Below are positions 17,836-27,462 of a stretch of DNA of 62,353 nt, one piece after another (the first letter of the stretch is position 1; each line of letters begins with the position of its first letter). The position numbers were made by a program, and so were the translations under genes. Below the pieces are notes generated by a model. That model worked only from the letters and a program-made list of their open reading frames with translations, searched no databases and was not told the origin of the DNA. This DNA comes from Nitrospira sp. (GTDB lineage: Bacteria; Nitrospirota; Nitrospiria; Nitrospirales; Nitrospiraceae), in NCBI GenBank assembly GCA_016788885.1, contig JAEURX010000047.1:1-62353 (forward strand), written 5' to 3'.

Positions 17836-18177
17836 TCAATTTAGGCAGGACCAGAGGCCCGGGAGCATCACTTTGGCCATGGCTTTGAGTTCCGATTCTG
17901 ATTGAGGCGGGACTCCCGAGAGAGCGATGCCGAAGTCGTGTCCTTTCGACCAACGGACCGTTGCTCTACGCACAAGCATGGGCGTGTCCGGAGTCGGTTG
18001 GATGACAATGACGACCAACTCCATGCCCACCGTGACCGCTTCCCTTCCTCGAATCCGTCCCCCGACATTGGTAAAATCTTCGGTGACACCGATGGTCTGA
18101 AATGCGCCATTCGAATAGTAGATCGGGTATTGGACGTGGATGCGTTTGGTCCCACGGTCACGATATGCCGTATTCAT
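17836..18177 (-). CDS. PilZ-domain protein
   Basis: 113 residues that are essentially one PilZ-like beta-barrel. It begins RGTKRIHVQYPIYYS, then VTEDFTNVGGRIRG (in place of the usual D-x-S-x-x-G), GMELVVIVIQP and VRRATVRWSKGHDFGIAL. The RxxxR part of the c-di-GMP motif is weak (RGTKR), so nucleotide binding is uncertain. Two more PilZ proteins are encoded at 61183-61943. Its start overlaps the end of the VanZ-like gene by 20 bp, implying cotranscription. Confidence 0.8.
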   Translation of the reverse strand: MNTAYRDRGTKRIHVQYPIYYSNGAFQTIGVTEDFTNVGGRIRGREAVTVGMELVVIVIQPTPDTPMLVRRATVRWSKGHDFGIALSGVPPQSESELKAMAKVMLPGLWSCLN

Positions 18178-18778: not shown

Positions 18779-19291
18779 TCAACCTTTTTTGTCGGGGGTC
18801 TGGTGATGCCACTCGTTGGGTGTGCTCGCGTAGGCCTGATAGGCCTGGCCGAATCCGAGTACCAGATGCGCATCCTGCATCTTCAGCTCCCACAAGGCAA
18901 AGTCGCCGAACCCGAACATCATCTTCGACTGGGGGAACTTCTTCAGATATCGTGTTTTGACCGACTCATAGGCGTCGTGTTCGACGGGGAGGAGGCTTGC
19001 GGTTCCCATCAAATTTAGCCGTTGCAGGGCCAGGGGGTTTTTCTCCGGCTCATCGGGTTCCGCAATGAACAGACTGACACGAGAATCCTTCAACAAATGT
19101 TGGGTATGCAGCGCCAGGCGGCTGAGGTGGAGGTAGACATGCGACCAATCCTTGTCCAGCAGATAGGGGACATGTGAGCCAAACGGGTGTCCGTTTCTGA
19201 GGGTCAGCAGGACGCCGGTTCGCAACTGTGCGATCAGCTGTTCGTAGGCGGCTTGAATTTCCTCATTTGGCTTGGGCTCTTGCATCGGCAT
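18779..19291 (-). CDS. Pyridoxamine 5'-phosphate oxidase-like flavin-binding protein
   Basis: 170 residues, a split-barrel PNPOx-like/HugZ-type domain: GVLLTLRNGHPFGSHVPYLLD, then HLSRLALHTQHLLKDSRVSLFIAE and LMGTASLLP, and a C-terminal LVLGFGQAYQ. Such proteins bind FMN, F420 or heme. The true substrate cannot be told from sequence and it need not act in vitamin B6 synthesis. A strong ribosome-binding site (GGGAGGTGACACG) precedes the ATG. Confidence 0.8.
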   Translation of the reverse strand: MPMQEPKPNEEIQAAYEQLIAQLRTGVLLTLRNGHPFGSHVPYLLDKDWSHVYLHLSRLALHTQHLLKDSRVSLFIAEPDEPEKNPLALQRLNLMGTASLLPVEHDAYESVKTRYLKKFPQSKMMFGFGDFALWELKMQDAHLVLGFGQAYQAYASTPNEWHHQTPDKKG

Positions 19292-19460: not shown

Positions 19461-19862
19461 ATGAAACAGTGGCACTGGGGCGTGATGGTAGCAGGGGTAT
19501 GTATGTCGATCGGGCTGACCGGCTGTGGCGGAAAGCACGCGGAGATCAAAGAAGACCGGCTGACCGTCGGACGGGTACAGGGCGAAGTGAAGGTCGGCAT
19601 GTCGGCTGCGCAGGTGGCTGAATTGCTGGGCTCGCCGAATATCGTGACCACGGACGACAAGCGCCGTGAGGTGTGGATCTACGACAAGGTCTCGACCGAT
19701 CGTGTCGACACGTCGAGTTCTACCTACGCCGGATTGATTATTCTGGGCGCGAACTCCAGCGACCATTCCAGTTCGCAGCGTCAACGGACCTTGACGATCA
19801 TCATCAAATACGACGAAGAGAAGAAGGTTCGCGATTTTGCCTACAACTCGACGCAGTTTTAA
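19461..19862 (+). CDS. BamE/SmpA-like lipoprotein
   Basis: 133 residues with a lipoprotein signal ending LTGC. The mature part has VKVGMSAAQVAELLGSPNIVTTDDKRREVWIYDK, the G-M-x-x-x-x-V-x-x-x-L-G-x-P...W-x-Y pattern of the SmpA/OmlA (BamE) domain. True BamE is part of the outer-membrane assembly machine; this protein's Ser-rich middle (SSSTYAGLIILGANSSDHSSS) is unusual, so an exact BamE role is not claimed. Its end overlaps the next lipoprotein gene by 26 bp and it heads a run of four lipoproteins. Confidence 0.75.
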   Translation: MKQWHWGVMVAGVCMSIGLTGCGGKHAEIKEDRLTVGRVQGEVKVGMSAAQVAELLGSPNIVTTDDKRREVWIYDKVSTDRVDTSSSTYAGLIILGANSSDHSSSQRQRTLTIIIKYDEEKKVRDFAYNSTQF

Positions 19863-20457
19863 GCCGACGGTTCAAGTGGGAGCGCGAGTCGTGGCGGCCA
19901 TCGTCGTTGCCCTGGGTTGGCCGCTGGTGGTGAGCGGGTGTGCTCAGCAGCGGGCTCAACCGGCTGAGTTTTTTCAATTGACGCCGGAAAGCAGCGCGAA
20001 TCGAGCCATGCAAACGCGGGTGTTCGAGACTCCCACCGATCACGAATTGTTGTCGGCCTCGGCGGCCGCCCTGCAGGATCTCGGATTTCAGATCGAGGAG
20101 AGTGTGGGGGAGGTGGGGTTCCTGCGGGCGGCGAAAGAACGGAGTGCGCGCGAGTACGGGCAGTACCGGAATCGGTTTTTCGTGTGGCTGCTGACGCTCG
20201 GCCATGTCCTCATTCCAATCGACCTGCACCAGAAGATTGCGGCGACCATCGTGGCCAGGCCCGTCGCCGAAGACCACTCGCGGCACGAGGTGCGGATCAT
20301 CTTCTATCGCGTGGTGTGGAAAGGGGACGGGCAGGCCGACCGCAATTACATCCCGCCGGGCGAACAACAAATGGAGATGATTCGCGATCAGGACATCTAT
20401 CAGCAATTTTTTGCGAAACTCTCCAAGGCGGTCTTCCTGGAGCCGCATGCAATCTAA
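19837..20457 (+). CDS. Lipoprotein, tandem family member 1
   Basis: 206 residues with a signal peptide and VSGC lipobox. Shared core with the next two genes: TRVFET...AALQDLGFQIEES...G and a C-terminal YQQFFAKLSKAVFLEP. This member has an extra segment in the middle (YRNRFFVWLLTLGHVLIPIDLHQKI) that may touch the membrane. Function unknown. The start is inside the previous gene, suggesting translational coupling. Confidence 0.75.
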   Translation: MPTTRRSFKPTVQVGARVVAAIVVALGWPLVVSGCAQQRAQPAEFFQLTPESSANRAMQTRVFETPTDHELLSASAAALQDLGFQIEESVGEVGFLRAAKERSAREYGQYRNRFFVWLLTLGHVLIPIDLHQKIAATIVARPVAEDHSRHEVRIIFYRVVWKGDGQADRNYIPPGEQQMEMIRDQDIYQQFFAKLSKAVFLEPHAI

Positions 20458-20469
20458 GCGCGAGGACAC

Positions 20470-20907
20470 ATGAACTGGACGTGGAGCTTTCAGGCGATGG
20501 TGCTGGCGGGGGGCATGATACTGCTACACGGGTGTGTCGCGCCGGAGCCTCGGCAGGAACTCTTCGCGCCGACCGATGCACAAATGAAAATCCGGAGCGC
20601 GCAGACGCGTTCGTTCGAGGTGAAAGATCAGACCGTCGCCATGCGAGGGGTCATTGCGGCCTTGCAGGATCTGGGGTTCATCATCGAACGGGCCAACGAA
20701 CCGCTCGGACTCGTCACGGCGGCCCGCTTCGCCGAACCCAACTATTACGACGTGCTCGGCGTCACGGTGACGGTGCGGGCCCAGGAGGCCGGGAAGACCA
20801 TGATTCGGGCCAATGCGATCTATAACAGTAAGCCCATCGACGATCCCAAGGTCTATCAGAATTTCTTTGCGGCGGTCGAGCGGTCGTTGTTTTTGGTGAA
20901 GGATTAG
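20470..20907 (+). CDS. Lipoprotein, tandem family member 2
   Basis: 145 residues with lipobox LHGC. The minimal member of the family: TRSFEVKDQTVAMRGVIAALQDLGFIIE, a short beta segment with VTVTVRAQEAGKTMIRANA and the end VYQNFFAAVERSLFLVKD. It starts 12 bp after member 1 and ends 3 bp before member 3. Unknown function. Confidence 0.75.
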   Translation: MNWTWSFQAMVLAGGMILLHGCVAPEPRQELFAPTDAQMKIRSAQTRSFEVKDQTVAMRGVIAALQDLGFIIERANEPLGLVTAARFAEPNYYDVLGVTVTVRAQEAGKTMIRANAIYNSKPIDDPKVYQNFFAAVERSLFLVKD

Positions 20908-20910
20908 CCG

Positions 20911-21519
20911 GTGCGGCGTCTGTTGCGCTCAGAAACGATCAGCACAGGACCTGTCAGGTTCGTCCGCGGCCTCGCAATGGCTGGTGTTCTGTTGGTGCTC
21001 CTGTCGGCAGCTGCCTGTTCGCCCTATGAATGGCGTCACGAAAACCAGTGGGAGTCGCGTGATCAGATCTGGCTGTCTGAAGCCAGTCAGGTGAAAGTGC
21101 GAGCCGCGCAAAGTCGTGTCTTCGACACCACCGATCGTCTGAAAACCATCCAGGCAGTCGTGTCGGCGTGTCAGGATCTGGGGTTTGCCGTGGAGGTGCT
21201 CGATGAAACGTTGGGCATCGTCTCTGCTAAGAAGTTCGACGACTATGAATCCTCTCGCCTCCGTGACGCGTCCTATCATCTCTACCGGGACGATGGTCTC
21301 CTCATACTCACGCGGCAGTTCCGAAGCTGGGGCCCCTTTTACCATCGCAGCAATCTTGTGCGCCTGACCGTGACGGTTCGGCCGCGAGGGACGACGCAAC
21401 TGGTCGTGCGGGCCAGCGCGCAGTATTATTTGAAAGCCGTCGAATCTCCTGAACCATACCAACAGTTCTTCCGCACCCTCGAGCAGGCGCTGTTCATACA
21501 GGCAAATATGCTTCAGTAG
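20911..21519 (+). CDS. Lipoprotein, tandem family member 3
   Basis: 202 residues. The N-terminal region is longer than usual before the membrane segment; the lipobox is SAAAC. Core: SRVFDTTDRLKTIQAVVSACQDLGFAVEVL, LVRLTVTVRPRG and the end YQQFFRTLEQALFIQANM. It starts with GTG three bases after member 2. An internal ATG in-frame at 20977 (MAGVLLVLLSAAAC) is a plausible alternative start with a more standard signal peptide. Confidence 0.72.
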   Translation: MRRLLRSETISTGPVRFVRGLAMAGVLLVLLSAAACSPYEWRHENQWESRDQIWLSEASQVKVRAAQSRVFDTTDRLKTIQAVVSACQDLGFAVEVLDETLGIVSAKKFDDYESSRLRDASYHLYRDDGLLILTRQFRSWGPFYHRSNLVRLTVTVRPRGTTQLVVRASAQYYLKAVESPEPYQQFFRTLEQALFIQANMLQ

Positions 21520-21567: not shown

Positions 21568-22287
21568 CTAGCTGCTCGATTGGCCGACGGCGATCTTCTG
21601 ACCTCCGTTCAGCTTTCCGGACGTGAAGACCGGATCGAGGTTAAACGCGACACTGATGCGAGGTGCGACCCCCCGGTAGGTATTGACCGCATGAAACAGC
21701 CAGCCAGGAAACAGCAGACATTGGCCGGAGGTGGGGGTATACGAGATGCTGGTACCGGCATCATGCAACTCGGTCATGCTGTATTGCAGGTAGGGCGCCA
21801 GCATGCGCGGCAGGCAGCCGCGTGGATCGTAAATCTGTAATTCGCCGCCCTTCGTCTCCTGCGGACACACTTCACCGACATCGACGTAATAGACCCCGGC
21901 CCAAAAACTGCCCGGGTGTGAGTGGGCCGCATTGGCGCCGCCATTCCGTTGTACGTTCGCCCACACCTCGACCACATCCCAATCAGGCCGGCAGCCCCCA
22001 TGCCCGCAGCGTTCAGAGAGAGTCGTGACTTGTTTGGCGACTTCGATCACCGGAGCAAATAACGCGCGTAACGGCTCACCCGCCCACTCCAGCATCGACA
22101 GGTCGTGGGGAGAAGACCAGCCGATGACCTCCGTATCCCGATGGGGCGGAACGGAGGCCTCTCGTTGCAAAATCAACGTGGAGAGTGTTGCGTTGATGCG
22201 TTCGTGGTCAGCCGGAATGAAGGCCAGCAGAGGCGTGGAGAAGAGCGGAGTAATGTGGATCTCGATCTCGGTCGGCATGGAGGACAT
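21568..22287 (-). CDS. Putative 2OG-Fe(II) oxygenase (TIGR02466-like)
   Basis: About 239 residues. The core VWANVQRNGGANAAHSHPGSFWAGVYYVD, followed by GGELQIYDPR and much later GQCLLFPGWLFHAVNTYRG and RISVAFN, matches the double-stranded beta-helix family of putative 2OG-Fe(II) oxygenases: His-x-His in the first motif, the distal His in LFHAV and Arg for 2-oxoglutarate. The substrate is unknown. Start uncertain: ATG at 22287 or 22278; a TTG at 22338 is less likely. Confidence 0.8.
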   Translation of the reverse strand: MSSMPTEIEIHITPLFSTPLLAFIPADHERINATLSTLILQREASVPPHRDTEVIGWSSPHDLSMLEWAGEPLRALFAPVIEVAKQVTTLSERCGHGGCRPDWDVVEVWANVQRNGGANAAHSHPGSFWAGVYYVDVGEVCPQETKGGELQIYDPRGCLPRMLAPYLQYSMTELHDAGTSISYTPTSGQCLLFPGWLFHAVNTYRGVAPRISVAFNLDPVFTSGKLNGGQKIAVGQSSS

Positions 22288-22472
22288 CCCATACTGCGCT
22301 ACGACCGTCGATTCGCCGCACGGTAGCTGCCCGTGCAAACGAATGTCAACCTAGGGATTTGCCCAGGGTTGGCGATTGTCATCAGGAATGGCCCATCGGG
22401 ATGGGCACGAGTGTATGTATGAGGATCTGCAGCCAAGACCTCCCCGCTGTTCGCGAGAGGCCGACAGCCGGC

Positions 22473-25347: not shown

Positions 25348-27462
25348 ATGGCCATCAAGACATCACGCTCACGTGCCGCTTCCTCCGCACCTGCAGCCGC
25401 ATCCGATTCGAGTGAGCCAGCCGCGACGCCGTCCCGTAAGAACGCTGAAACCGGAGCACCGTCCGCTTCCGGGGTGACGGCCGTGGAAATGGGGGCCCGG
25501 CAACGGGAGATTTCCGTCTCCGAATTTTTTACGAAGAACCGGCATCTGCTTGGATTCGACAACCCCCGCAAGGCGCTGCTGACCTGTGTCAAAGAAGCCG
25601 TCGACAATTCGCTGGATGCCTGTGAGGAAGCCGGGATCCTGCCGGATGTGACCGTGAAACTGGAGGTCGTGACGACCGGTCAGACTCCGGTCGCGCCGAG
25701 TCAGGCGACCCGATTTCGCATCACCGTCACCGACAATGGTCCGGGGATTGTCCGGCAGCAGATTCCGCGCGTGTTCGCCAAGTTGCTGTACGGCTCAAAG
25801 TTTCACCGCATGCGGATGAGCCGCGGGCAGCAGGGCATCGGGATTTCCGCCGCCGGCATGTACGGGCAACTGACGACCGGGAAACCGGTCAAGGTGATTT
25901 CCCGCACGGGTCCGCGGGCGGCGGCCCACTATTTCGAGGTGCAGATCGACACGAAGAAGAACGAGCCGCTGGTGCACGACAATAAACAAATCGAATGGCA
26001 TCAGCCGCAAGGGACTGAGGTGACCCTCGAGGTTGAGGGGCGGTATCAAAAGGGGCGGGCGTCGGTCGACGAATGGTTGGAGCAGACGTCAATTGCCAAT
26101 CCGCATGTGCGGCTGGTCTACCACACCCCTGAGGGTGAGACGAAGGAGTATCCTCGCACCTATCATGAATTGCCGCCGTCGCCGAAGGAAATCAAGCCCC
26201 ACCCCTACGGCATTGAATTCGGCGCCCTGCTGAAGATGCTGCAGGATACCAAGAGTCACACCGTCGCCGCATTTTTGGCCAGCGACTTTTGCCGTGTGTC
26301 TCCGGCGTTGGCGGAAGAGATGTGTAAAGCGGCCAAACTGTCGCCCAACACCAAGCCCCGTGACGTGAAACATCAGGCCGCGGAGATCTTGTACAAGACC
26401 ATCCAGGCCACCAAGATCATGGCGCCGCCGACGAACTGTATTTCCCCGATCGGAGAAAAGGCGATCCTGTCGGGTCTGTACAAGCAGATCAAGGGCGAGT
26501 TTTACACCGCGGTCAGTCGTCCGCCGGCGGTGTACCGGGGGTATCCGTTCATCATCGAGGCCGGACTGGCGTTCGGGAAAGGTCCGGAGGAGGCGACAAA
26601 GCCTCAGCAGGCCAGTGCGCCGCTCGCGGAAGGTGAGGACCACGGGCATGAAACGGAGCTAGCGCGGGTGATTCGGTATGCGAACCGGGTGCCGTTGCTC
26701 TATCAGCAATCCGCCTGCTCGACCTTCAAGGCCGTGCTTAGCACCACCTGGCGGAACTACGGTGTGAGCCAGTCGCGGGGCGCCTTGCCCGCCGGCCCGA
26801 TGGTGATTTTCGTGCACATGGCCTCCGTCTGGGTTCCCTTCACGAGCGAGTCGAAGGAAGCCATTGCGGACTATGACGAGATCCAGAAAGAAATCACGCT
26901 GGCGCTGCGTGAGGCAGGACGGCGATTGGGGATCTTCCTGCGGAGGCGTGAGCGGGCTGCGAGTGAATTCCGTCGCCGGAATATCTTCGATTTGTATATC
27001 GAGGAGGTGGTCGCCGCCTGTAATCGTTTGAAAGGTGGACACTTACCTGTCGAAAAATTGAAAGGGCAGCTGCATAAGATCGCGAGCTCGCGTACGGGCG
27101 GCATCAAGACCGATGAAGCGTTGGGGAAGACAGGTGCGGGACCTGAAGGATTGCCGCATTCGATCATCGTGACAGCTGAAGGAATCGAAGGCGAGACGGA
27201 GATTGCGCAGCAGGCTCCCGCGGCAGACGCCGGCACTCCGGTGTCGATGCCTGCGGATTCCGTCTCGGGACGGGATGCACCGGCAAAGACCAAGCGGGCC
27301 GCCAAGCCTAAGGCGGAACCCATGACACGCAAGGGGACCAGCAAGGCTAAGGCCGCAGGCGGGCAGCAGGACATGTTCGCCGTCGAGCCGACTCCGGCAA
27401 AAAAGGCGGCACCCCGTCGGCCATCATCCGGTGCAGCCAAGCCCACCCGTAAGAGGACATAG
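25348..27462 (+). CDS. top6B: DNA topoisomerase VI subunit B (GHKL ATPase)
   Basis: ATPase subunit of the archaeal-type type IIB topoisomerase. 704 residues: a disordered Ala/Ser/Pro-rich N-terminus (1-45), the GHKL ATPase with KEAVDNSLDACEEAG (Asn87 for Mg/ATP), VTDNGPGI at 128-134 and the lid SRGQQGIGISAAGMY at 158-172, an H2TH-like segment, and a transducer domain ending near residue 560. The last ~110 residues are Ala/Lys/Pro-rich (TKRAAKPKAEPMTRKGTSKA), longer than archaeal subunits of about 530 residues. Subunit A follows 8 bp downstream. Topo VI relaxes and decatenates DNA using ATP. Confidence 0.95.
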   Translation: MAIKTSRSRAASSAPAAASDSSEPAATPSRKNAETGAPSASGVTAVEMGARQREISVSEFFTKNRHLLGFDNPRKALLTCVKEAVDNSLDACEEAGILPDVTVKLEVVTTGQTPVAPSQATRFRITVTDNGPGIVRQQIPRVFAKLLYGSKFHRMRMSRGQQGIGISAAGMYGQLTTGKPVKVISRTGPRAAAHYFEVQIDTKKNEPLVHDNKQIEWHQPQGTEVTLEVEGRYQKGRASVDEWLEQTSIANPHVRLVYHTPEGETKEYPRTYHELPPSPKEIKPHPYGIEFGALLKMLQDTKSHTVAAFLASDFCRVSPALAEEMCKAAKLSPNTKPRDVKHQAAEILYKTIQATKIMAPPTNCISPIGEKAILSGLYKQIKGEFYTAVSRPPAVYRGYPFIIEAGLAFGKGPEEATKPQQASAPLAEGEDHGHETELARVIRYANRVPLLYQQSACSTFKAVLSTTWRNYGVSQSRGALPAGPMVIFVHMASVWVPFTSESKEAIADYDEIQKEITLALREAGRRLGIFLRRRERAASEFRRRNIFDLYIEEVVAACNRLKGGHLPVEKLKGQLHKIASSRTGGIKTDEALGKTGAGPEGLPHSIIVTAEGIEGETEIAQQAPAADAGTPVSMPADSVSGRDAPAKTKRAAKPKAEPMTRKGTSKAKAAGGQQDMFAVEPTPAKKAAPRRPSSGAAKPTRKRT

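Follow-up and report, generated by a model that had tools for sequence, protein, structure and literature searches.

What is the role of a run of four small lipoprotein genes in a Nitrospira genome, and do these genes belong together? The question is raised by positions 19461-21519 on the plus strand of contig JAEURX010000047.1 (assembly GCA_016788885.1), from which a stretch of 62,353 nucleotides (hereafter, the window) was analysed. According to the ORF calls in the window, the unit consists of four genes, denoted here in their order as E, A, B and C (Table 1). A preliminary description of this DNA considered A, B and C as paralogous lipoproteins following a BamE/SmpA-like lipoprotein, and proposed that they might form a hetero-oligomer. 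The position of the trio is as described: E lies directly upstream of A and exceeds the Pfam cut-off for BamE.

The trio was also called “tandem, overlapping-spaced”. The tandem order on the same strand stands; the overlap among A, B and C does not, since A and B are separated by 12 nt and B and C by 3 nt. The sole overlap in the operon is that of E and A, which amounts to 26 nt if A begins at the TTG codon at 19837. Where A starts is uncertain, since the codons at its beginning overlie the 3' end of E; the GTG at 19877 is an alternative. A promoter and terminator scan gave nothing informative.

Table 1. Coordinates of the genes, shared motifs and variable segments of the E-A-B-C unit in the window.
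Feature	Position	Strand	Description or basis
E	19461..19862	+	BamE-domain (PF04355) lipoprotein, 133 aa, lipobox LTGC
A	19837..20457	+	predicted helix-grip lipoprotein, 206 aa from TTG, lipobox VSGC, Cys codon 19939
B	20470..20907	+	short, predicted helix-grip lipoprotein, 145 aa, lipobox LHGC, Cys codon 20533
C	20911..21519	+	predicted helix-grip lipoprotein, longer middle loop, 202 aa, GTG start, Cys codon 21016
Shared block QDLGFQIE in A	20074..20097	+	motif search
Shared block QDLGFIIE in B	20665..20688	+	motif search
Shared block QDLGFAVE in C	21172..21195	+	motif search
C-terminal helix motif YQQFFAKLSKAVF in A	20398..20436	+	motif search
C-terminal helix motif YQNFFAAVERSLF in B	20854..20892	+	motif search
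C-terminal helix motif YQQFFRTLEQALF in C	21457..21495	+	motif search
Most hydrophobic 15 mature residues of A (FFVWLLTLGHVLIPI), variable middle	20176..20220	+	hydrophobicity peak
Conserved middle loop of C (YHLYRDDGLLILTRQFRSWGPFYHRSN)	21274..21354	+	alignment of C sequences

The genes around the unit may be described briefly. Directly downstream of C, on the opposite strand, a putative 2OG-Fe(II) oxygenase is encoded (21568-22338; TIGR02466, PF13759), which is no constant neighbour of the module in other phyla. Upstream of E the minus strand carries a HutZ/HugZ-like flavin-fold protein (18779-19291; below the equivalog cut-offs) and a PilZ-domain protein (17836-18177; PF07238, 30.8 bits). 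Farther away, at 25348-27462 on the plus strand, lies a gene for subunit B of DNA topoisomerase VI (660 bits to NCBIfam NF003218); this enzyme is known above all from archaea.

The common origin of A, B and C is evident from several comparisons. Pairwise BLASTP gave 1e-8 for A-B (this match partly covers the signal peptide), 6e-7 for A-C and 2e-23 for B-C. The three motifs that the preliminary description had quoted as common to the trio are all present in the window proteins; in the comparison of profiles, where the shared blocks might have vanished, hhalign on alignments of the genus orthologues gave instead probabilities of 98.2 % (A-B), 97.5 % (A-C) and 99.6 % (B-C). Chance similarity is thus ruled out by the BLASTP and profile-profile scores. 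In all four proteins the signal peptide ends in a lipobox cysteine that is invariant in the genus alignments. The claim of paralogous lipoproteins with a common core holds. The lipobox of C in the window is weak (AAAC), and the C orthologues have better ones. The lipobox tally included 68 rows for A, 86 for B, 85 for C and 80 for E, rows without the motif or the box being omitted; for A it was repeated with 62 rows kept.

The preliminary description could name no function for the trio, and no described family was found for it: A, B and C fall outside every family in Pfam, NCBIfam, PHROGs and PADLOC. Scans of Pfam, NCBIfam and PHROGs gave nothing usable for these proteins; their relatives produced only below-cut-off matches in Pfam and NCBIfam, mostly to signal peptides or short stretches, and searches of solved structures with family members by sequence returned matches at the level of chance. 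PADLOC had zero matches for E, A, B and C of the window and two weak matches for one Acinetobacter protein. The module is undescribed in the literature searched (open-licence papers only). A likeness of the family to hypothetical proteins of proteobacteria, which we had presumed, was then tested by plasmid searches.

The next question is whether the genes are kept as a set. Among 90 loci (L054-L143), 83 contain E, A, B and C in this order on one strand. Four of the seven exceptions (L073, L079, L106, L107) end within the operon at contig ends; in L117 the gene E is on the opposite strand and divergent; L136 (genome G299) keeps A-B-C, with no E at the locus or elsewhere in the genome; and L127, from N. 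moscoviensis, is degraded. The latter copy (L127:5500-6924) is decayed: E is missing (also from the genome), A and B are devoid of signal peptides, and C looks whole. At L082:6562-10763 the in-place C is split over two frames, and about 4.3 kb downstream there is an intact C-like ORF, possibly a duplication followed by decay; this locus was counted as ordered despite the broken in-place copy. Within the genus, B was found in 26 of 29 genomes, and 24 of the 26 loci read have all four genes, whereas contig ends truncate the remaining two (L021, L025); at L029 the gene C is split over two frames.

Beyond the genus the module is patchy. In the family Nitrospiraceae 43 of 98 genomes match, of which 41 have three or more copies and two (G061, G087) have only fragments, not counted as sets; the module is dispensable, being absent from over half of the family's genomes. 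For the phylum Nitrospirota the figure is 45 of 245 genomes, namely 41 with three copies and four with one copy, in each case behind E. In the phylum of G301 (L143), 10 of 77 genomes match (seven triples, two doubles and one spurious), and in that of G297 (L125), 6 of 282 (five triples and G345 with odd remnants). These remnants (L175:3415-4658) are two overlapping ORFs weakly related to the family, near which no E was detected, and perhaps represent a diverged or decaying pair. A search around the genome of L142 gave 4 matches among 190 genomes; it overlaps the search of 282 genomes (G345, G454, G473 and others), so that both concern one phylum and are not additive. The loci L142, labelled Proteobacteria, and L136 are apparently of the same phylum as the Myxococcales MAG with L125; the other MAG labels are as deposited and may be wrong. 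A scan of GTDB contigs yielded 132 relatives, and the best 80 of the 132, which were kept, are labelled Nitrospira, Nitrospinota, Myxococcota, Planctomycetota, a Geobacteraceae and a proteobacterial MAG. The named proteobacterial records with relatives are from Azospirillum, Acinetobacter and Vibrio. With the set in order in 83 of the 90 loci and 41 of the 45 matching Nitrospirota genomes carrying triples, the members are not mostly singletons devoid of a conserved neighbourhood, and the expectation that A-C are kept together in other genomes holds across several phyla.

Beyond the module itself, no gene recurs across phyla in the 18 loci compared; some flanks are common to the Nitrospinota loci, but to these alone. 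The gene neighbourhood was therefore rejected as a clue to function, since nothing besides E-A-B-C recurs in these 18 loci. Of the ORFs that recur beside the module in other phyla, none was recognised as a BAM gene. Viral contigs (query A7) and phages (query an E only) contained no relative.

The preliminary description mentioned E as a lipoprotein that the trio follows and underrated it: E is more than a mere neighbour of A-C. It is the constant partner of the module, kept also where only one or two of the paralogues exist. It stands beside all four single-copy genes of Nitrospirota and the one of Vibrio, and it was present in 11 of 11 further loci. Six of the 21 genomes picked to test E contain it, and all six have A-B-C or the single copy. 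E was also sought in 13 Nitrospiraceae genomes that are without the set, and none has it; G061, one of these 13, is among the genomes with fragment matches. When plasmids were searched with E as the only query, six records came up, identical to those obtained with A, with the second gene of Azospirillum and with the single form. As to the domain, E scores 25.7 bits against Pfam BamE PF04355 (cut-off 23.2), the sole above-cut-off match in the genome, and stays below the cut-offs that NCBIfam sets for true BamE and OsmE. The BamE equivalog NF008585 (cut-off 93 bits) had no listed match for E of the window, and three relatives of E score 19-24.7 bits against it.

The forms with fewer copies suggest how the module may have arisen. 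In four Nitrospirota genomes of other families (L171-L174) and on a Vibrio replicon (L160), E is followed by a single helix-grip gene. The two-copy form, with E, A and one further gene, occurs on Azospirillum and Acinetobacter plasmids and in two Nitrospinota genomes; of these four cases, Acinetobacter has a further gene that fits the B profile best, and in the other three the C profile fits best. Two single-copy pairs (L171:2823-5001 and L172:3341-5754) were seen by eye near tyrosine-recombinase-like genes, a hint of mobility. On the same contig as the former, an ORF at L171:7541-7858 consists of a repeated stretch of 20-odd residues and, judged by eye, is perhaps a CRISPR array read as protein.

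A tree was built from 54 rows, comprising 44 A/B/C rows picked for spread, rather than all loci, and 10 others; the two-copy genes of the Nitrospinota genomes were left out. The A rows (16) fall on one branch with support 100/99, and the C rows (14) on one with 100/98; the B rows (14) need one change, with weak support (79/27) and presence in 90 % of the bootstrap trees. Each of the three branches spans several phyla. The A genes of Azospirillum and Acinetobacter join A, their second genes are neighbours of C, and the B/C side of the tree is where the single-copy genes branch off. Independent lineage-specific duplications of A-C are ruled out by this tree, and from its topology the triplication therefore predates the spread over phyla. 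The distance matrices of the four genes correlate with Mantel r of 0.75-0.88 over 44 loci, a value reached in 0 of 999 permutations; for this sample L117 was dropped by hand, six loci lacking a gene were omitted, and the resulting 83 were thinned to 44. Such correlated distances fit transmission as a unit, and shared descent without contact would also yield them. The relatives with one and two copies suggest that the module began as a pair of E plus one gene, that duplications enlarged it before it reached the various phyla, and that the set was then inherited or transferred as a whole.

The middle segments were said to differ within the trio, and they do diverge: A has a hydrophobic stretch, C an aromatic/charged loop, and B is short. 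The conserved cores differ chiefly between the third and fourth strands. In each of the 28 aligned A sequences the hydrophobic peak falls at mature residues 74-82, with a median Kyte-Doolittle mean of 2.03 for the best 15 residues; the peaks of B and C are lower and mostly in the core helix. In the alignments the loop of C is conserved and B is the short form, i.e., the bare domain. These differences agree with different contacts for each of the three proteins.

AlphaFold models were obtained for mature A (28 sequences, mean pLDDT 69.7) and mature C (45 sequences including B rows, mean pLDDT 74.1, most of the core above 80-90). Both consist of a strand, a helix, antiparallel strands and a closing helix, and the predicted placement of A and C in the helix-grip fold class is supported. 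The top Foldseek matches in the PDB are BamC, at 6e-4 for A and 3e-5 for C (ranks 1-11). A specific tie to BamC is unsupported because the second aligner ties BamC (Z 8.0-9.8) with Flpp3 (9.1-10.3) and with KA1 and Bet v 1-like folds (about 8-10).

Our preferred reading, which we hold with about equal belief and doubt, is that E-A-B-C is one operon for an outer-membrane lipoprotein module with E constant and A, B and C non-redundant, perhaps an accessory similar to BamC/BamE. All four lipoproteins would be anchored in the outer membrane. That they assemble into one complex is somewhat probable, and a hetero-oligomer may reasonably be inferred from the retention of the set and the co-variation of its genes. 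E would be the common subunit, A, B and C would occupy different positions set by their middle loops, and the hydrophobic stretch of A might be buried in the membrane or in a partner. A-B-C without E in L136/G299 and the divergent E of L117 count against this reading. As to the job of the module, we propose, tentatively and by analogy with BamC and BamE, that it might assist as an accessory in assembling outer-membrane proteins; its scattered occurrence speaks against a role in BAM, as does the finding that none of the recurring neighbours was recognised as a BAM gene. It is rather unlikely, in our opinion, that the module is a portable accessory in which a BamE-type protein and one to three single-domain BamC-like lipoproteins move as a block among Nitrospirota, Nitrospinota, Myxococcota, Planctomycetota and proteobacteria and dock on the BamA-BamD core of these hosts. 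If it were true, BamC- and BamE-like partners would extend beyond the proteobacterial BAM.

Alternatively, the helix-grip domains might take up lipids or other hydrophobic ligands in the grip pocket, in the manner of Bet v 1-type proteins; the module would then serve as an outer-membrane lipid carrier or sense envelope stress, with no relation to BAM. The models align with Bet v 1-like folds as well as with BamC, A has its hydrophobic stretch, and the recurring neighbours include no recognised BAM gene; however, the constant partner carries a BamE domain and no other gene is a constant neighbour, and we consider this explanation unlikely. In another explanation, A, B and C have a promoter and an ancestor in common and are nevertheless separate lipoproteins, which would act with different partners and form no single complex. 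The strong divergence of the middle segments and the A-B-C of L136 would be natural under this assumption; nevertheless, the trio stays together in all 41 Nitrospirota genomes with more than one copy, its order is kept in 83 of 90 loci, and the 13 Nitrospiraceae genomes without the set are without E as well (G061 having a fragment match of the set), and we consider independence of the three likewise unlikely.

The least probable explanation is that the module is a passenger of mobile elements involved in surface exclusion, phage defence or plasmid upkeep. It would account for the 8 kb Acinetobacter plasmid, where the module lies beside a toxin-antitoxin pair, the IS5 transposase near it in Azospirillum, the recombinase-like genes seen by eye near L171 and L172, and the patchy presence across phyla. 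We find it quite improbable, considering that E, A, B and C have no PADLOC match, that the viral contigs (query A7) and phages (query an E only) gave no relative, and that 26 of the 29 genomes of the genus have the module with the mature sequence conserved.

The observations define a lipoprotein family without a name and, over several phyla, a strict partnership of genes. A unit of BamE plus helix-grip proteins in other phyla either widens the picture of BAM or represents a parallel system recruiting the same folds, and the one-, two- and three-copy forms offer a natural series for how paralogous envelope subunits specialise.

Three known systems are close enough for comparison. Flpp3 of Francisella is likewise a single-domain lipoprotein and has the top score of the second aligner (Z 9.1-10.3), but its sequence identity to A and C in the fold alignments with the models is 5-8 %. 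With the BamE/OsmE domain lipoproteins (PF04355), E shares a score above the Pfam domain cut-off; it differs in being tied to helix-grip genes rather than to BAM genes and in missing the NCBIfam cut-offs for BamE and OsmE.

BamC (NlpB of E. coli, PF06804) is an outer-membrane lipoprotein with the helix-grip fold that is predicted for A and C; it is the best Foldseek match of both models and works beside a BamE, as A-C adjoin E. A 2026 review reports contact between BamC and BamE in E. coli (PMC13067283). A BamD-like (YfiO) protein is encoded elsewhere in the genome of the window. According to that review, the BamC chain comprises two helix-grip domains, and its N-terminal lasso wraps round BamD, whereas the A and C models have one domain of about 120-150 residues, B is shorter still, and only about 20-35 residues separate the lipid cysteine from the first strand in A, B and C. 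PF06804 matched none of A, B and C, nor anything in the whole genome, with a positive E. coli control; hhalign against E. coli BamC gave probabilities of 0.2 and 0.8 % (a weak test with one single BamC sequence) and detected no kinship. Direct membership of A-C in BamC is ruled out by the domain number, the lasso and the profile. BamC itself is reported solely from beta- and gamma-proteobacteria (PMC3359395). We rate the arrangement as new and its kind as known: lipoproteins of the outer membrane that act as partners and use BamE and helix-grip domains.
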